64,000 nt of DNA from Cryobacterium melibiosiphilum (GTDB lineage Bacteria > Actinomycetota > Actinomycetes > Actinomycetales > Microbacteriaceae). Every line of letters starts with the position of its first letter. The stretch's first letter is position 1. The DNA is taken from NCBI RefSeq assembly GCF_003602235.1, contig NZ_QZVS01000096.1:1-64000 (forward strand), in the 5' to 3' direction. Below are positions 11,859-41,607 of this stretch, one piece after another. The translations under genes and the position numbers were made by a program. The notes under the pieces were generated by a model. The model made no database searches. It was not told the origin of the DNA and was given only the letters and a program-made list of their open reading frames with translations.

Positions 11859-13744
11859 CCGACCCGGCAGCGTCGGCACACGCCGCGTCGGCGGATGCAG
11901 CGTCGGCACACGCCGCGTCGGCGGATGCAGCGGTGGCTGCCAAGCCGGCGCCGCCGAGCCTGCGCCCGCAGGCGCCGCTCACCGACGGGGAGTGGCACCG
12001 GCTGCACCCGGCCACCCCGCTGTTGCGTGGCGGAATCTTCGTGGTCGCCATCCTCGGTTTCGTCATCACGAACCTGCGCGAACGCCTCGTCGAGTTCTTC
12101 TTCGGGGAACCGCACTTCGAGGGCGACCCGCTCGACGAGATCGTGCGCCGGGGCGCCGTCGGTTGGGCGCTGCTGATCATCGCGGCCGTGCTCATCATCA
12201 TCCTGCTGGCCTTCTACGTGTCCTGGCGCATGCACACGTTCCGCGTCGGGGCCGACGCTGTCGAGGTGCGCAGCGGCATCCTCTTTCGCAGTCACCGCAA
12301 GGCCCGCCTCGACCGCATCCAGGGCGTGAACCTCATGCGGCCGTTCATTCCGCGGCTGTTCGGCGCCGCCCGGCTCGAGGTCAGCGTCGGCGGGCAGGAC
12401 GGCTCGGTTCAGCTCGCCTATCTGCGCGGCGACCTGGCCGATGACCTGCGCCGGGACATCCTGCGACTCGCCTCGGGCATCCGCCAGGCTGCGGCGACGG
12501 ATGCCGCGGCCCCGCCCGACGAGTCGGCCTCCGGCCCCGCGGGCGCTCATGATGCGGCGCACCCACGGTCCGCCGCCGGCTTCGGCGACCTCGCCTCCGC
12601 TCGCATGCACGAGTTCATGGCGCCCGAACTCGACCCCGACGCCGCGCCGCCGGAGTCGGTCGTGCGCATTCCGGTCGGCCGGCTGATCGGCTCGATCGTG
12701 CTGAGCGGCTTCACCGTCTTTCTGCTGGCGGCCGTGGTCGCCCTCATCATCGGCGTGGTCAACGGCGGCAGCGGCTGGCTGCTGTTCGCCATTCTGCCCG
12801 GCATCATCGGCAGCGTCGGCTACTACTGGTCCCGCATCACGAAATCGCTGCGCTACAGCATCTCGAGCACGAGCGACGGCGTGCGTGTCGGGTTCGGCCT
12901 GTTGTCGACCAGCAGCGAGACCCTGCCGCCCGGGCGCATCCACGCCATCGGGGTGTCCCAACCGCTGCTCTGGCGGCCCTTCGGCTGGTGGCAGGTGCAG
13001 ATCAACAAGGCAGGCCAATCCGTGATGCAGGGCGCCGGGGGCGCGGCGAGCACCCTGATGCTGCCGGTCGGCACCGTGACCGACGTAGAACGCGTGCTCG
13101 AACTGCTGCTGCCCGGGTTCTCGACCCCGGAGCAGCGCCACCTCGTGCAGCAGGGCATGGCTGGCGCCGGCAGCGACGCGGATGCCCGCAGCGCGGTGGC
13201 CGACGGCAGCCCCTTGACCGACGGCGGCCCGGTCGGGCTCGGCGACGGCCGGGGTGACGGATTCACCAACGCGCCCCGCCGTGCCCGCTTTCTGCGCCCG
13301 TTCTCGTGGCGCCGCACCGGCTACGCCGTCTCCGGGGGAGTCGCGCTGCTGCGCCACGGCGTCATCTCCCGCGACCTGATCCTCGTTCCGCTCGCCCGGT
13401 TGCAGAGCGTCGGCATCGACCAAGGCGCGATCAAGCGGCGCCTCGGCCTCGCATCCGCTCGCCTGCACACCGTGATGGGTCCCGTGACGGCGCAGCTCAG
13501 CGTGCTCGACTCTGACGAAGCCAAGCGGATGTTCGCCCGCATCTCCGCGGACGCGGCCGCCTTCGCCGCGACGGACACCAGCCACCGCTGGAACCAGCCC
13601 ACGGTGCTGAGCGCCCCGGCTGCACCGATCCCCACGGCTGGCCCGACCCCCGCGACTGGCCCGACCCCCACGGCTGGCCCGACCCCCGCGACTGGCCCGA
13701 CCCCCACGGCAGGCCCAACCCCCATGACAGGAATGGCCGAATGA
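11855..13744 (+). CDS. Membrane PH-domain protein (YdbT-like)
   Basis: 629 residues. Three PH-type domains are visible (RSGILFRSHRKARLDRIQGV; TSSETLPPGRIHAIGVSQPLL; RHGVISRDLILVPLARLQSV), with paired membrane segments before them, as in YdbT. Both ends carry low-complexity repeats: an Ala/Ser/His/Asp repeat at residues about 5-25 and a Pro/Thr/Ala/Gly repeat at about 590-625. These are encoded by DNA tandem repeats annotated separately. Overlaps both neighbours by 4 bases. Confidence 0.8.
   Translation: MTDPAASAHAASADAASAHAASADAAVAAKPAPPSLRPQAPLTDGEWHRLHPATPLLRGGIFVVAILGFVITNLRERLVEFFFGEPHFEGDPLDEIVRRGAVGWALLIIAAVLIIILLAFYVSWRMHTFRVGADAVEVRSGILFRSHRKARLDRIQGVNLMRPFIPRLFGAARLEVSVGGQDGSVQLAYLRGDLADDLRRDILRLASGIRQAAATDAAAPPDESASGPAGAHDAAHPRSAAGFGDLASARMHEFMAPELDPDAAPPESVVRIPVGRLIGSIVLSGFTVFLLAAVVALIIGVVNGGSGWLLFAILPGIIGSVGYYWSRITKSLRYSISSTSDGVRVGFGLLSTSSETLPPGRIHAIGVSQPLLWRPFGWWQVQINKAGQSVMQGAGGAASTLMLPVGTVTDVERVLELLLPGFSTPEQRHLVQQGMAGAGSDADARSAVADGSPLTDGGPVGLGDGRGDGFTNAPRRARFLRPFSWRRTGYAVSGGVALLRHGVISRDLILVPLARLQSVGIDQGAIKRRLGLASARLHTVMGPVTAQLSVLDSDEAKRMFARISADAAAFAATDTSHRWNQPTVLSAPAAPIPTAGPTPATGPTPTAGPTPATGPTPTAGPTPMTGMAE
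11867..11926 (+). repeat. 30-bp perfect tandem duplication
   Basis: Two identical 30-bp units (11867-11896 and 11897-11926), followed by the first bases of a third, within the 5' end of the YdbT-like gene. In frame, so it adds residues of the ASAHAASADA type without disruption. Confidence 0.9.
13630..13719 (+). repeat. 18/36-bp tandem repeats at the end of the YdbT-like gene
   Basis: Five consecutive 18-bp units, alternating in two types so that the true period is 36 bp (13630-13665, 13666-13701, then a diverged half unit to 13719). They encode alternating PTAGPT and PATGPT. Confidence 0.9.
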
Positions 13745-14496
13745 CCTCTCGCCCCGGACGCCTCGGCGTCGGCATCATCGGCGCGGGTCGCGTCGGCCCG
13801 ATCCTCGGCGCGGCCCTGGCCGGCGCCGGCCACGCCCTCGTCGGCATCTCCGCGATCTCGCAGGCCAGCCGCGACCGCGCCGAGGCGATTCTGCCCAACG
13901 TTCCCATTCTGACCGTTCCCGAAATCGTCGAGCGCAGCGAACTCGTCATTATCTGCGTTCCCGACGACGCCCTCGACAGCCTCGTCACCGGCCTCGCCGC
14001 GACCCACACCTGGCAGGCCGGCCAGCTCGTCATGCACACCTCGGCCCGGTTCGGAACGGATGTTCTCGCCCCCGCCCTGCTCGGGGGTGCGATTCCGCTC
14101 GCCATCCACCCGGCAATGGCCTTCACGGGCACGAGCCTCGACCTGGCCCGCCTCGCCGACAGCTACTTCGCCGTGACCGCGCCGACGCCGGTGCTGCCGA
14201 TCGGGCAGGCCCTCGTGGTGGAAATGGGCGGCGAACCACTCATCGTGGCCGAGCGCGATCGCGCCGCCTACGCGGAAGCGATCGAGACCGCGACCACCTT
14301 TTCCACCTCGATTGTGGAACAATCGACACGGTTGCTCGCCGGAATCGGCATCGAGAGTCCCGGTGCGGTGCTCGGCCCGCTCGTGCGTTCCGCCGTCGAA
14401 AACGCCCTGCAGCGCACCAGCCCTGAACCGCTCGACGTCGACGTCGCCGCCCTCGACTATTCCGCACCGCCCCGCACCGACCCGGAGGACGAATGA
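13741..14496 (+). CDS. Rossmann-fold oxidoreductase-like protein with DUF2520
   Basis: 251 residues. The N-terminal NAD(P)-binding fold has GIIGAGRVG at about residues 11-19; the C-terminal half is the helical DUF2520 region with AIHPAMAFTG at the junction. It lies between the PH genes and panC with 4-base overlaps on both sides, as Rv3603c lies beside panC in mycobacteria. A role in pantoate supply has been proposed from such context, but nothing here proves it. Confidence 0.8.
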   Translation: MTSRPGRLGVGIIGAGRVGPILGAALAGAGHALVGISAISQASRDRAEAILPNVPILTVPEIVERSELVIICVPDDALDSLVTGLAATHTWQAGQLVMHTSARFGTDVLAPALLGGAIPLAIHPAMAFTGTSLDLARLADSYFAVTAPTPVLPIGQALVVEMGGEPLIVAERDRAAYAEAIETATTFSTSIVEQSTRLLAGIGIESPGAVLGPLVRSAVENALQRTSPEPLDVDVAALDYSAPPRTDPEDE

Positions 14497-15457: not shown

Positions 15458-17002
15458 ATGAGCACGAACCCCTCCGCCCCCGCCGAGCTGACCGACAGCG
15501 CCCTGGCCTTCGCCGGCCTGAGCGATTCGGAGGTCAGCGAGCAGCAGGCCGTGCGCCTCGGCAAGCGTGACCGCCTCAACGCCGCCGCGGCCACGCCCGG
15601 TGGTGGCGCCTACCCGGTCTCCGTTCCCGTGACCCACACGATCCCGGCCGTGCGCGCCGAATTCGGCACCCTCGAAGCGGATGCCGTCACTGGCGTCACC
15701 GTCGGCGTCGCCGGCCGCGTGGTCTTCCTGCGCAACACCGGCAAGCTCTGCTTCGCCAGTCTGCAGTCCGGCGACGGCACTCGCATCCAGGCCATGGTGA
15801 GCCTTGCCGCCGTGGGCGCGGACTCCCTCGCCGAATGGAAGGACCTCGTCGACCTCGGCGATCACCTGTTCGTGACGGGCGAGGTCATCTCAAGCCGCCG
15901 CGGCGAGCTCTCGATCATGGCCACCGACTGGCAGATCGCCGCCAAGGCCCTGCTGCCGTTGCCGAACCTGCACAGCGAGCTGAGCGAAGAGACCCGCGTG
16001 CGCAGCCGCTACCTCGACCTGATCAACCGCGAACAGGCCCGCCGCACCGTCGTTCAGCGCTCGCAGACCGTCGCGAGCCTGCGCAAGACGTTCACCGACC
16101 TCGAGTTTCTCGAGATCGAGACGCCGATGCTGCAGACCATGCACGGCGGGGCATCCGCTCGCCCGTTCGCGACGCACTCCAACGCCTTCGACACCGAACT
16201 GTTCTTGCGCATCGCGCCCGAGCTGTTCCTCAAGCGTGCCGTCGTCGGCGGCATCGACCGGGTCTACGAGATCAACCGCAACTTTCGCAACGAGGGCGCC
16301 GACTCGACGCACTCGCCCGAGTTCGCGATGCTCGAGGCCTATGAGGCGTACGGTGACTACAACTCGATCGCCGACCTCACGCAGAAGCTGATTCAGAACG
16401 CGGCGATGGCGATCGCCGGGTCGCACGTGGTGACCTGGGCCGACGACACCGAGTTCGACCTCGGCGGCGACTGGGACCGCATCAGCATGTACGAGAGCCT
16501 CTCCGCCGCCGTGCACCGCGAGATCTCGCCCGCTACGCCGCTCGCCGAGCTGCAGGAGCTGGCGACCCGCGAGGGCCTCGAACTCGACCACCCGATCCAC
16601 GGCAAGTACGTCGAAGAGCTCTGGGAGCACTTCGTGAAAGACGGCCTCGTGCGCCCCACCTTCGTGATGGACTTTCCGATCGACACCAGCCCGCTCGTGC
16701 GCGGCCACCGTTCGATCGCCGGCGTCGTCGAGAAGTGGGACCTGTACATTCGCGGTTTCGAGCTCGCCACCGGGTACTCCGAGCTCGTCGACCCGGTCAT
16801 CCAGCGTGAACGTTTCGTCGAGCAGGCGAGCCTCGCCGCCGACGGCGACCCCGAGGCCATGCGCCTCGACGAGGAGTTCTTGCGGGCCCTCGAATACGGC
16901 ATGCCGCCGACCGGTGGCATGGGCATGGGCATCGACCGCCTGCTGATGGCCCTGACCGGCCTCGGCATTCGCGAGACGATCCTGTTTCCTCTGGTGAAGT
17001 AG
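15458..17002 (+). CDS. lysS: Lysyl-tRNA synthetase, class II
   Basis: 514 residues. The N-terminal OB-fold anticodon-binding domain spans about 60-160. The class II catalytic core has motif 2 around YEINRNFRNEG and motif 3 around GMGMGIDRLLMAL at the C-terminus. This is class II, not the class I LysRS of some actinobacteria. The ATG at 15458 follows a GAGAAA stretch and the panC stop. Confidence 0.95.
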   Translation: MSTNPSAPAELTDSALAFAGLSDSEVSEQQAVRLGKRDRLNAAAATPGGGAYPVSVPVTHTIPAVRAEFGTLEADAVTGVTVGVAGRVVFLRNTGKLCFASLQSGDGTRIQAMVSLAAVGADSLAEWKDLVDLGDHLFVTGEVISSRRGELSIMATDWQIAAKALLPLPNLHSELSEETRVRSRYLDLINREQARRTVVQRSQTVASLRKTFTDLEFLEIETPMLQTMHGGASARPFATHSNAFDTELFLRIAPELFLKRAVVGGIDRVYEINRNFRNEGADSTHSPEFAMLEAYEAYGDYNSIADLTQKLIQNAAMAIAGSHVVTWADDTEFDLGGDWDRISMYESLSAAVHREISPATPLAELQELATREGLELDHPIHGKYVEELWEHFVKDGLVRPTFVMDFPIDTSPLVRGHRSIAGVVEKWDLYIRGFELATGYSELVDPVIQRERFVEQASLAADGDPEAMRLDEEFLRALEYGMPPTGGMGMGIDRLLMALTGLGIRETILFPLVK

Positions 17003-17026
17003 CTCGGCTGCCATGAGCACGGGCCG

Positions 17027-17173
17027 ATGAGTTACCTCCCACCCGGCGAGCTCGACCCCGACAGGGGCGGGCGGAAGCCGCCGTCGATGAACCGGATCGC
17101 CATCTGGGTCATCGCCGGCGGCATCGGAGTGTATTTCGTGGGCACAGGCCTCTACGGGCTGCTGACGAGCTAG
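17027..17173 (+). CDS. Small single-pass membrane protein downstream of lysS
   Basis: 48 codons from ATG 17027 to TAG 17171-17173. A Pro/Gly/Asp-rich cytosolic start (MSYLPPGELDPDRGG) is followed by one membrane segment (about 23-46, IAIWVIAGGIGVYFVGTGL). Third positions are strongly G/C and the frame is uninterrupted, like a real gene. It starts 24 bases after lysS and probably shares its transcript. Function unknown. Confidence 0.65.
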   Translation: MSYLPPGELDPDRGGRKPPSMNRIAIWVIAGGIGVYFVGTGLYGLLTS

Positions 17174-17202
17174 CCGCGCGCCGCGCCATCCGCTCGCCCG
17201 CG

Positions 17203-17286
17203 TGGCGCAGGGAGGACGTTTCGCTCCCGCGTCGGCTGGGGGAGGATGATTTGACTGTTTTTGCGCGTTCTGTCCTCCCTTGGCGA
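17203..17286 (+). repeat. 84-bp palindromic intergenic repeat, copy A
   Basis: It has outer arms TGGCGCAGGGAGGAC and GTCCTCCCTTGGCGA and an internal direct word GGGGAGGATGATTTG. It aligns without gaps, over exactly 84 bases, with copies at 18265-18348 (51 identities, hand count) and 41524-41607 read on the minus strand (62 identities). It lies upstream of the DUF559 gene. Confidence 0.8.
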
Positions 17287-17383
17287 CGGGCGCCGTTCCT
17301 CCACAGCCCCGCCCGCGGGCGGCTTATACACAAAACGCTCGGGTGCCGCCACGAAACCGGCCTGCTTCAGCGATGCTCGACCC

Positions 17384-18241
17384 ATGAATCGTTCACTCGC
17401 TCAGGATCTGGCCCGATTCGGTAATTTGGCCACCCGCTCGCAATTGCGAACTCTCGGCTATACCGACCGTGACCTGCGTCGGGCAATGGCAGCCCAGGAG
17501 TTGTGGCCACTTGGACGCTCCTGGCTTGCCCACCGCGGCGTCGACCATGATGCCCTGCGGGCCGTGGCCCTGCATGGCCGGCTCGCGGCAGAATCCTCTC
17601 TGGCGAATCACGGCGTCTGGGTCACTCGCCCCACCGGCTTGTGGATCGGAACAGCACTCCACTCGGGTCACGCTCCGGCCACCGGTGCAAACGAGCACCG
17701 GATCTGGGTGAATGAACGCTTCCCGCGCGACACAGACGTTCGCTGGCGGATGTCGGTGCCCGACTCGCTGCTGCAATTCGCCGCTCTCGGGGAGGGTTGC
17801 GACGTGGTCGCGTCGATGGACAGCGCGCTCAATAAGGGGTTGGTGACACCGGCCGAACTTGAACGGGTGATCGCTGCGGTGCCGCGGCGTCTGCGCCGGC
17901 TGCTGGGACGCGTGGACGGCCGCGCTCAATCGGGGCTGGAAACCCTGCTGCGCCTGGCCGCCGAAGCCGAGGGCTGGAATGTGCGGATCCAGGTGGTGAT
18001 CTCCGGGGTCGGCCGCGTCGACGTACTCATCGACGGCTGGCTCGTCATCGAACTCGACGGGGCCCGGTGGCACGACGACGAGCAATCCAGAGATGAGGAC
18101 AGCCGCCGCGATGCCGAACTCACCCTGCTTGGCTATCGGTACCACCGCTTTCGGTCGCGCCAGGTGCTGGAGGAGATGCCGCTGTGCCTGGCGGTCATCC
18201 GCACCATTCTGGCGAGCGGGCGGCCCCTAGTGGCCGCGTGA
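17384..18241 (+). CDS. AbiEi-like winged-helix protein with C-terminal DUF559 (Vsr-like nuclease) domain
   Basis: 285 residues from ATG 17384. The N-terminal about 80 residues (LARFGNLATRSQLRTLGYTDRDLRRA) resemble the winged helix of AbiEi-type antitoxins. The C-terminal about 100 residues are DUF559, a Vsr/PD-(D/E)XK-like fold, with VDVLIDGWLVIELDGARWHD as the core (acidic residues and the E-x-D segment). Such genes are numerous in Microbacteriaceae; their role is not established. An earlier in-frame start at 17261 is rejected because it would lie over the repeat. The gene stands between two direct copies of the 84-bp repeat. Confidence 0.8.
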   Translation: MNRSLAQDLARFGNLATRSQLRTLGYTDRDLRRAMAAQELWPLGRSWLAHRGVDHDALRAVALHGRLAAESSLANHGVWVTRPTGLWIGTALHSGHAPATGANEHRIWVNERFPRDTDVRWRMSVPDSLLQFAALGEGCDVVASMDSALNKGLVTPAELERVIAAVPRRLRRLLGRVDGRAQSGLETLLRLAAEAEGWNVRIQVVISGVGRVDVLIDGWLVIELDGARWHDDEQSRDEDSRRDAELTLLGYRYHRFRSRQVLEEMPLCLAVIRTILASGRPLVAA

Positions 18242-18264
18242 GCGCATCCGTTGCCGCAGCCGTG

Positions 18265-18348
18265 TGGCAAGCGGAGGACGATTTGCTCGAGCGTCGGCGC
18301 AGGGAGGGCATTTTGACGAGAAGCGGGTGTCGCTTCCTCCCTGCGGTG
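18265..18348 (+). repeat. 84-bp palindromic intergenic repeat, copy B
   Basis: Same length and orientation as copy A, starting 24 bases after the DUF559 stop. It keeps GCGGAGGACGATTTG at the left, AGGGAGGGCATTTTGAC in the middle and TTCCTCCCTGCGG at the right. It also contains GACGAGAAGCGGGTG, close to the arms of the second repeat type seen at 30624 and 39140. Confidence 0.75.
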
Positions 18349-18387
18349 CGGGTGTCAACTCCCAGCGCAACCCCGTATTCTGGAACC

Positions 18388-18582
18388 ATGGTTGAGAACT
18401 TTTGGGCGAACGCGGCATGGTCGGTCATTCCCACGATTCTGCTGGGGCTGACGTTCTGGTACGTGCTGCGCTCGATCATTCGGGCCGACCGCACCGAGCG
18501 CAAGGTGTACGCCAAGATCGAAGCCGAAGAGCGCGCGCGCCTCGGCCTGGACGCTCCCGGCCTCGACACACCCGCCACATAA
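18388..18582 (+). CDS. Small membrane protein upstream of cardiolipin synthase
   Basis: 64 residues from ATG 18388. One membrane segment (about 8-30, AWSVIPTILLGLTFWYVL) is followed by a charged Arg/Glu-rich cytosolic tail. It ends 6 bases before the cardiolipin synthase gene, so they are probably one operon. No family function is known to me. Confidence 0.7.
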   Translation: MVENFWANAAWSVIPTILLGLTFWYVLRSIIRADRTERKVYAKIEAEERARLGLDAPGLDTPAT

Positions 18583-18588
18583 TTCCGC

Positions 18589-20052
18589 ATGCCGGCCCTT
18601 GACGGTTCGACCTTCCTCGTTCTAGCCGCCTTTGTCGTCGACTTCATCGTTCGTGTCATCGCCGTCATCGTCGTGCCGCGCAATCGCCGACCGATGTCGG
18701 GCATGGCCTGGCTGCTGACGATCTTCTTCATCCCGTACCTGGGTGTCTTTCTCTTTATGCTGATCGGCTACCGCACGCTGCCCAAGAAGCGGCTGGCCCA
18801 GCAGCAACTCATCAACCGGTTTATTCTGGAGAGCACCGAGGGCGTCGAGTTGGTACGCCACGAAGAAGTGTGGCCGGGCTGGCTGGAATCGGTGGTCGAG
18901 CTCAACCGCAACCTCGGCGCGATGCCGCTTGTCGGCGATAACACCGCGACCCTGCTCGGCGACTACCAGGGCAGCTTCGACGCCATGATCGCCGACATCG
19001 ACCGCGCCGAACGCTACGTGCACGTCGAGTTCTATATCCTCTCCCTCGACCCGACCACCAAGCCGTTCTTCGACGCCCTCGAGAACGCGGTGAAGCGCGG
19101 GGTCAGTGTGCGGGTGCTGATGGACCACATCCAGTCGATGCGCAAGCCCGGATACAAGGAGACCAAAGCGCGGCTGACCGCCTCCGGCGTGAAGTGGGAA
19201 CTCATGCTGCCGGTGCAGCCGTTCAAGGGCAAGTGGCAGCGCCCGGACCTGCGCAACCACCGCAAACTGCTCGTCGTCGACGGGCTCGTGGGGTTCATGG
19301 GCTCGCAGAACATCATCGACCGCTCCTACAACATGCGCCGCAACATCCGCCTGGGGCTGCAGTGGAAAGACTTCATGACCCGCCTCGAGGGCCCGATCGT
19401 CTCGGGTCTCAACGCGATCTTCATCACCGACTGGTACAGCGAGACCAACGACATGCTGATCCGCGACATCGAGCCTGTGCATCCGCGGCCGCTGACCGAC
19501 GGCCTGGACTGCCAGGTCGTGCCGAGTGGGCCCGGATTCAAGGGCGAGAACAACCTGCGCCTGTTCCTCGCGCTGCTGTACTACGCGCAGGAGCGCATCA
19601 TCATCACGAGCCCGTATTTCGTGCCGGACGAGTCGATGATGTACGCGATCACCACGGCGACCCAGCGCGGTCTGCACGTGGAGCTCTTCGTCTCCGAGAT
19701 CGGCGACCAGGCCGTGGTTTACCACGCGCAGCGCTCATACTACGAGGAGCTGCTGCGCGCCGGGGTGCACATCTACATGTACAAGGCGCCATACATTCTG
19801 CACGCCAAGCACTTCACGATCGACGACGAGGTCGCCGTGGTCGGCTCGAGCAACATGGACCAGCGCTCCTTCAGCCTCAACATGGAGGTCTCGCTGATGG
19901 TGCGCGGCCACACCTTCGTCGAGCGCCTGCGCGCCATGGAAGACGAGAACCGGGCCAACAGCCGAGAGCTCACCCTCGAGGAGTGGATGAAGCAGCCGCT
20001 GCGCTCCACGATCCTCGACAACCTCGCCCGGCTCACGTCGGCCGTGCAGTAG
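18589..20052 (+). CDS. cls: Cardiolipin synthase (phospholipase D type)
   Basis: 487 residues. Makes cardiolipin in the membrane. Two N-terminal membrane segments (about 5-25 and 38-60) are followed by two PLD domains with HKD motifs: HRKLLVVDGLVGFMGSQN near 223 and HAKHFTIDDEVAVVGSSNMD near 404. The length matches bacterial Cls. The last 20 bases overlap the 3' end of the convergent XRE gene. Confidence 0.92.
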   Translation: MPALDGSTFLVLAAFVVDFIVRVIAVIVVPRNRRPMSGMAWLLTIFFIPYLGVFLFMLIGYRTLPKKRLAQQQLINRFILESTEGVELVRHEEVWPGWLESVVELNRNLGAMPLVGDNTATLLGDYQGSFDAMIADIDRAERYVHVEFYILSLDPTTKPFFDALENAVKRGVSVRVLMDHIQSMRKPGYKETKARLTASGVKWELMLPVQPFKGKWQRPDLRNHRKLLVVDGLVGFMGSQNIIDRSYNMRRNIRLGLQWKDFMTRLEGPIVSGLNAIFITDWYSETNDMLIRDIEPVHPRPLTDGLDCQVVPSGPGFKGENNLRLFLALLYYAQERIIITSPYFVPDESMMYAITTATQRGLHVELFVSEIGDQAVVYHAQRSYYEELLRAGVHIYMYKAPYILHAKHFTIDDEVAVVGSSNMDQRSFSLNMEVSLMVRGHTFVERLRAMEDENRANSRELTLEEWMKQPLRSTILDNLARLTSAVQ

Positions 20053-41523: not shown

Positions 41524-41607
41524 TGGCGAAGGGAGGACTGCACGGTGGAAACGGGCCACATCATCCTCCCCTGGATGACACGTGTGCGAATCGTCCTCCC
41601 TTCGCCA
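41524..41607 (-). repeat. 84-bp palindromic intergenic repeat, copy C
   Basis: Read on the minus strand it aligns to copy A with 62 identities in 84 (hand count). Outer arms TGGCGAAGGGAGGAC and GTCCTCCCTTCGCCA form a perfect 15-bp inverted repeat but for one position, with GGGGAGGATGAT in the middle. It lies alone between the PRISE gene and a lipoprotein gene, with no DUF559 gene nearby. Confidence 0.8.

Follow-up and report, generated by a model that had tools for sequence, protein, structure and literature searches.

The DNA analysed here is a stretch of 64,000 nucleotides from Cryobacterium melibiosiphilum (contig NZ_QZVS01000096.1; genome G000 in our set), which we call the window. Our subject is a gene of the DUF559 / MTES_1575 nuclease type that lies in it between two copies of a palindromic element. 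The gene (17384..18241, plus strand; 285 aa) carries an AbiEi-like winged helix-turn-helix (wHTH) at its N-terminus, and its ATG start was picked because the aligned orthologs begin there. Copy A (17203..17286, plus strand) is located upstream of the gene and copy B (18265..18348, plus strand) 3' of it. The initial annotation had given these coordinates, a common orientation and 51 ungapped identities over 84 bases, all of which were exact on recount. Scanned without gaps against both strands of the window (cut-off of at least 42 identities), A matched only B and a third copy, C (62 identities), which is absent from the initial annotation. With B as query, the best matches beyond the three copies have 42 identities. 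Copy C (41526..41607, minus strand) is a dispersed copy between two minus-strand genes; it is 74% identical to A (E 1.6e-8) and adjoins no DUF559 gene.

The element consists of a word, a second copy of the word 30 bp further on, and an inverted copy near the end. The words are GGAGGAC-GATTTG-like. In copy A the direct word D1, GGAGGACGTTTCG, occupies 17211..17223 and the direct word D2, GGAGGATGATTTG, which stands 30 bp past D1, occupies 17241..17253, both on the plus strand; the inverted arm D3 (17272..17279, minus strand) reads GTCCTCCC on the plus strand. In copy B the corresponding parts are D1, GGAGGACGATTTG (18273..18285, plus), D2, GGAGGGCATTTTG (18303..18315, plus), and D3 (18335..18341, minus), which reads TCCTCCC on the plus strand. 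The earlier description of the repeats as palindromic was correct and incomplete, since two direct words accompany the inverted one. The three arms covary across 39 copies, namely 21 of the 24 found in G000 (a duplicate, a partial copy and one that was not extracted were left out) and all 18 of Cryobacterium frigoriphilum (G012). In the D1-D3 and D2-D3 helices 57 and 51 cells show a change in both partners, and sliding the helices reduces this to 6-16 and 3-23. Of five covariation measures, two (double-change pairs and further pair types) were not above shuffles. Single-strand folding was unremarkable for A (z -1.9) and B (z -0.4) and strong for C (z -3.7). Support for the arms comes from the covariation over 39 copies and not from the folding of A and B. 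The 39-copy consensus has no GTAG at either end.

The protein belongs to DUF559 by Pfam: the family PF04480 scores 29.9 bits against a gathering cut-off of 20.6, and the MTES_1575 cut-off is passed as well. Matches to AbiEi_4 were below cut-off and a match to MraZ was weak. In a structure model of the protein (mean predicted local distance difference test score, pLDDT, 69; predicted template modelling score, pTM, 0.58) residues 2-53 (17387..17542, plus strand) resemble the antitoxin AbiEi (6y8q; Z 7.3, root-mean-square deviation 1.6 over 52 residues). The gene had been annotated from the start as an AbiEi-wHTH/DUF559 fusion, and the wHTH part, sub-threshold in Pfam, is borne out by this model. 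Residues 181-282 (17924..18229, plus strand) form a Vsr-like nuclease domain, with matches to 3hrl (Z 12.5), the homing endonuclease I-Bth0305I (3r3p, Z 12.1) and Vsr (1cw0, Z 10.1). A sequence profile agrees on 3hrl and 3r3p (E 0.0028 for 3r3p). With Foldseek alone nothing reached E <= 0.001, and its ranks 1-4 went to the same nucleases. E186, D213, E223, D225 and H230 are among the residues that all 29 aligned homologues conserve. The protein is predicted, mainly from its modelled fold, to join an AbiEi-like DNA-binding domain to a PD-(D/E)XK nuclease of the Vsr/homing-endonuclease kind. No Y1 transposase family appeared in the Pfam scan of the window protein or among the families of its 29 homologues; the genome itself was not searched for PF01797. 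The protein had no match in plasmid and phage collections (tblastn, E 1e-5) or in NCBIfam.

The gene and its elements sit between lysS and cls, with a small open reading frame (ORF) on either side, sm1 on the left (17027..17173, plus strand) and sm2 on the right (18388..18582, plus strand). Copy A begins 29 bases past the sm1 stop and copy B ends 39 bases ahead of sm2; at nine empty loci the sm1 stop and the sm2 start are about 15-40 bases apart. Relative to the genomes that do not carry it, the A-gene-B unit is extra DNA. We read the lysS-cls loci directly in 41 of 56 other genomes and found the ortholog between the small ORFs only in G012, Glaciibacter superstes (G052), C. tagatosivorans (G054) and G055. 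The elements at this locus are upstream only in G012, clear upstream in G054 and clear downstream in G052, and in G055 one stands after a truncated gene. The G055 ortholog (L144:636-1100), which has the same location as the others, ends after about 120 residues (121 kept) and runs into an element-like palindrome. Inserts other than DUF559 genes were also seen between sm1 and sm2, at L132, L134, L135, L138 and L139 (G029, G048, G013, G040 and G024, respectively), some of them SGNH-hydrolase-like and some ROK-like as judged by eye. Since inserts of such variety occur here in five genomes, the spot is an insertion hot spot.

The neighbourhood bears on one alternative, that the protein is a toxin or a defence nuclease, kept inactive by its own palindromes or guided by them in recognising self DNA. 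PADLOC models for AbiEi do match one of the three homologues scanned (best E 5.7e-7). The window protein itself had no PADLOC match, and neither an AbiEii nucleotidyltransferase nor a methylase adjoins the gene, whose neighbours are lysS, sm1 and sm2 (both without Pfam match) and cls. We hold this to be the least probable of the explanations considered.

Bracketing of DUF559 genes by similar sequences is not confined to the window. We compared 400 bp on each side of the gene at 70 Microbacteriaceae DUF559 loci (30 returned by a family search and the next 40 rows), with a threshold score of 38, the 99th percentile of mismatched flank pairs. This score was reached at 36 of the 70 loci against 1 of 168 control segments, the controls being tiles of similar length from a few genomes and not gene-bounded. 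Scored against the 99th percentile of mismatched pairs, 33/70 loci lay above it, and at 27/70 the locus's own pair ranked first. A second set, for which the threshold had been fixed beforehand, gave 12/20 further genus loci against 7/628 tiles. Counting repeated words (k=9, at least 4 occurrences) separated loci from controls less sharply than flank alignment (26/70 against 2/168). The five non-DUF559 inserts at the lysS-cls site scored at most 26. The six DUF559 genes of G000 scored 40 (the window gene), 117, 87, 67, 35 and 21, some of them with different slice lengths, so that four pass; the gene scoring 35 (C68) has a visible word in both flanks, and the one scoring 21 (C48) fails. Two matches to PF18741 only, both within large ORFs, had flanks that were not alike.

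The bracket also recurs with other letters. Mycetocola manganoxydans (G141), whose protein is 48% identical, has a tripartite bracket of very different sequence, with CAACAGGTGCAAAA-like words 30 bp apart. A search of the phylum at E <= 1e-15 matched 19 of 396 genomes, 13 of them outside Microbacteriaceae. Among the loci tested (28 of 30, the remaining two being those of G000), the score of 38 was passed by 8/11 within the family and 6/17 outside it; one of the six, L309, is C-rich low-complexity DNA, and L299 (G161) and L216 of the 70-locus set are one gene. Flank comparison across loci gives good support for an association between this DUF559 subfamily and cognate palindromes, with individual loci as exceptions, and by the same measure the repeat-nuclease-repeat layout is frequent in the subfamily. 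Two individual flanks are worth recording. Upstream of the DUF559 gene at L172 (G276) the arm word forms a tandem array of CCTCTGCTCGCGACGCTT-like units, and at L152 (Corynebacterium striatum) CCTCACCATTTG-like words in both orientations stand 3' of a distant DUF559 gene.

To follow the element beyond the gene we used R1, a covariance model built from 11 G000 copies; the family had been recognised through its word pattern and then modelled. At E <= 0.01 in 57 genomes of the genus, R1 matched 24 times in G000 (11 of these are its training rows, including copy A at 94.6 bits), 18 times in G012, 10 in G055, 6 in G054, 2 in G052 and once, weakly, in G024 (E 4e-4); the other 51 genomes had no match. 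BLAST of the same 57 genomes with copy A as sole query found copies in G000 alone. An ortholog of the DUF559 gene (E < 1e-48) is present in G000, G012, G052, G054 and G055. The element thus occurs in 5/5 genomes with the ortholog and in 1/52 without it. Most of those 52 genomes hold other DUF559-type genes, so the link is to this ortholog and not to DUF559 genes at large. The initial annotation had named an equal density of the repeat in genomes lacking DUF559 genes as a finding that would speak against it; the repeat does follow the ortholog, and a tie to DUF559 genes in general is not seen. A single clade does not account for the co-occurrence, since a Cls tree covering 39 of the 57 genomes requires three changes for the element-bearing ones, at least two of them imposed by well supported branches. 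Joint loss of gene and element from a common ancestor is possible.

The dispersed copies are intergenic. In 20 of the 21 sites of G000 outside the window that were examined, with gene contexts taken from a home-made heuristic caller based on codon usage, none of the copies falls within a called gene; 10 sites are convergent, 6 tandem and 4 divergent. L078 and L079 (contigs C58 and C69) share an identical element and identical surrounding gene calls and are probably an assembly duplicate, without which 3 divergent sites are left. Only 2 of the 24 copies in G000 (by coordinates) and 1 of the 18 in G012 adjoin a DUF559 gene, which argues against a simple view modelled on repetitive extragenic palindromic (REP) sequences and their REP-associated tyrosine transposases (RAYTs).

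These contexts are relevant for a second explanation, in which the wHTH protein uses the elements as operators, with autorepression at A, the dispersed copies form a regulon or chromosome-binding sites, and the nuclease acts elsewhere or only under stress. The AbiEi-like wHTH of the model fits such a role, the three like words of each element suggest cooperative binding, and the accessible part of PMC7319586 describes AbiEi binding to multiple inverted repeats. However, the 19 distinct sites outside the window divide into the 10 convergent, 6 tandem and 3 divergent ones, copy B is downstream of the gene, and the sister species differ in which copies they have. The operator explanation leaves the gain of whole 84-bp units at unrelated sites unexplained. 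We think it unlikely, while giving it about one chance in four.

The arms of the dispersed copies tend to resemble those of the copies next to the gene. In G000, 12 of 21 copies have GGAGG arms, 5 have CAGG and 4 another type, compared with 0, 13 and 5 of the 18 copies in G012 (p 8e-5). Without the gene-adjacent copies, which are GGAGG in G000 and GCAGG in G012, GGAGG arms are found in 10/19 against 0/17 (p 4e-4). In G055 all 7 copies seen (of 10) have CAGG and in G054 all 6 have a CCGG right arm with mixed left arms, in both cases as in the gene-adjacent copy. The single non-adjacent copy of G052 has GAGG, again like the gene-adjacent copy, which is the other match in that genome. Arm types other than that of the model were found even though R1 was trained on G000, which is opposite to its training bias. 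The 11-residue recognition helix (28-38) differs at 4 positions between the sister proteins (p 0.057 for a region picked post hoc), which is no more than suggestive.

Further arm codes were found in more distant genomes, with words picked after viewing the loci in question. CAACAGG-N23-CAACAGG has 10 occurrences in G141, 6 in G253, 6 in G314 and single ones in G335, G350 and G000; the other 18 of the 24 genomes lack it, and reversing the pattern gave two matches overall. Two such pairs bracket a DUF559 gene in G141 and likewise in G314, and one lies just upstream in G253. The arm CATAAAACAGGAGTTCG (up to 2 mismatches; each element carries two such arms) matches 17 times in each of G158 and G084 and is missing from 12 other genomes, with 3 matches of the reversed pattern, and in both G158 and G084 matches lie on both sides of a DUF559 gene. 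We hold it very improbable that some other enzyme moves the elements, or that they act as bidirectional terminators, with the DUF559 link arising by chance. In its favour, REPs typically have their palindromes where convergent genes end (PMC3733652), and the genome was not searched for Y1 transposases. Against it, flank similarity is enriched in two sets of loci, the arm type follows the gene-adjacent copy, and scans of 16950-18650 for sigma70-type promoters and intrinsic terminators called no site, including at A and B.

Comparison with the sister species shows that individual copies come or go. The comparison covers 253 kb of G000 contig C61 and, in G012, the initial 200 kb of contig C85. 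In G012 the site of C is empty with both flanks intact and B is missing, while A and a copy at 140829 are common to both genomes; empty sites in relatives, which the initial annotation had proposed to look for, thus exist for B and C. Eight of twelve orthologous site pairs were used; B/L093, L072/L103, L073/L097 and L080/L106 were dropped for a neighbouring site or a one-sided or distant flank match, and of those kept, L075/L090 has a match on a single flank and the matching flanks of L085/L099 are more distant. Four of the eight are vertical, with interiors that rank first to each other. L076/L095 is one of these and its arms are nevertheless switched, a combination that agrees with the operator explanation. 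In A/L093 and L071/L094 the flanks match, the interior is at least as close to other copies as to its ortholog, and every arm is switched. At L097:679-2996 (G012), which corresponds to L073 of G000, about 94 bases between the flanks may be the remains of an element, and another copy lies 1 kb away.

Switched arms could point to a homing-like drive, in which a free-standing homing endonuclease cuts old elements that are then repaired from newer ones, so that copies are overwritten in place and not inserted. The nuclease domain is near I-Bth0305I, second only to 3hrl, and A/L093 and L071/L094 behave as such a drive would have it. However, L082/L100 and L084/L104, whose arm type is unchanged, also have an interior rank of only 5-15 of 38, so a low interior rank is not specific to switched sites. 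The four vertical pairs argue against this drive too, as does the fact that complete elements bracket the gene and the gene splits no site. Overwriting of old copies is only hinted at by these alignments, and we consider the homing-like explanation improbable.

The explanation we favour, at about even odds, is that A, the DUF559 gene and B constitute a repeat-nuclease-repeat unit with a putative wHTH reading domain and a nuclease-driven spread of short copies. The AbiEi-like wHTH would recognise the repeated word, and the Vsr/I-Bth0305I-like domain would nick or cut at or near the element. Repair would then copy the element, and at times the whole unit, to new places. The short copies would be non-autonomous derivatives that depend on the gene, as REPs presumably do on RAYTs, with another chemistry at work. 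From its fold and the matching of the arms the protein likely binds the arms. That it would cut them and thereby spread the elements is the reading we prefer, although it is unproven.

Several points weigh against a nuclease-driven spread. PD-(D/E)XK nucleases are not expected to rejoin strands, so host repair has to be invoked. A and B are just 61% identical, unlike the ends of a recently moved transposon. At the empty site of C the BLAST flanks overlap by 7 bp and the alignment has no clear target duplication, and from empty sites gain and loss of copies are indistinguishable. Flank scores are below threshold at 34/70 and 8/20 loci, the loci within each set are related and hence not independent, and this very locus scores 20-26 in the four other genomes with the ortholog, no better than other inserts there. 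R1 was trained on G000 copies, and CAGG may be an old arm type common to G012, G055 and some G000 copies, in which case the evidence from arm matching is mainly that of G000 and G054.

Two further observations concern the window as a whole. Rfam at gathering thresholds found only four tRNAs and no intron family. At 13321-14322 (minus strand) an unlikely ORF is a GVGPVAGVGPAV repeat, and the DNA there seems to carry a short tandem repeat.

DUF559 genes had been called common in this family, and indeed 244 of 398 Microbacteriaceae genomes have a homologue of this subfamily (E <= 1e-25). To our knowledge no role for DUF559 genes is settled. Many of them seem to have a candidate recognition sequence alongside, which makes their function approachable by tests of binding, cutting and movement. 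If the elements are mobile as proposed, bacterial palindromic repeats can stem from an enzyme class besides the RAYT transposases, and the natural protein-arm pairs are a ready data set for a recognition code. Somewhat more tentatively, these genes may form a self-spreading or self-converting class that is common in Microbacteriaceae and extends to some other Actinomycetota. In it, an AbiEi-wHTH joined to a Vsr/homing-type nuclease would mobilise its own tripartite palindromes while carrying no recombinase of the HUH, DDE, tyrosine or serine type, and a per-gene arm code would track binding specificity. Among the papers listed by searches of the open-access literature (subscription papers and bioRxiv were not covered) we found no description of DUF559 genes with palindromic repeats.

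The likeness to REP/RAYT arrangements that the initial annotation had seen is real, and it recurs at DUF559 genes of other genera with other arms; the protein is no RAYT-type HUH transposase, most copies are not DUF559-adjacent, and in the other genomes with the ortholog the layout is one-sided or weak. As far as the accessible text of PMC3733652 describes REPtrons and TIRtrons, the systems are alike in a gene bracketed by palindromes (A and B here, and 36/70 loci), in dispersed intergenic copies mostly at gene ends, and in a repeat and a protein that differ together between genomes. RAYTs use HUH chemistry according to the same text, and the enzyme of REPtrons is of the HUH/Y1 kind, whereas the one here combines an AbiEi-wHTH with a Vsr-like PD-(D/E)XK domain. 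The element is 84 bp long with three words and no GTAG, in contrast to the GTAG-tagged hairpin of 20-40 bp of REPs, and it is present in tens of copies, compared with the usual more than 100 REPs per genome given in the accessible part of PMC2817692. Failing the tests of enzyme and tag, the unit is not classed as a REPtron despite its layout. With miniature inverted-repeat transposable elements (MITEs) and CGTC-tagged REPs, the latter reported without a dedicated transposase in the accessible text of PMC3733652, it shares short dispersed palindromes; here there is a candidate partner gene, and no clear target duplication at copy C. The N-terminal wHTH fold is like that of AbiEi, the antitoxin of the AbiE type IV toxin-antitoxin system, whereas the C-terminal domain is a predicted nuclease and an AbiEii toxin gene was not found alongside. 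The predicted nuclease fold and the conserved acidic and histidine residues are shared with Vsr, I-Bth0305I and the DUF559 protein VsrA of Caulobacter; unlike I-Bth0305I-type genes, the gene stands alone in an intergenic insert and not in an intron, and it has a wHTH and cognate palindromes. None of these families takes the unit in, and its layout itself has a known analogue.
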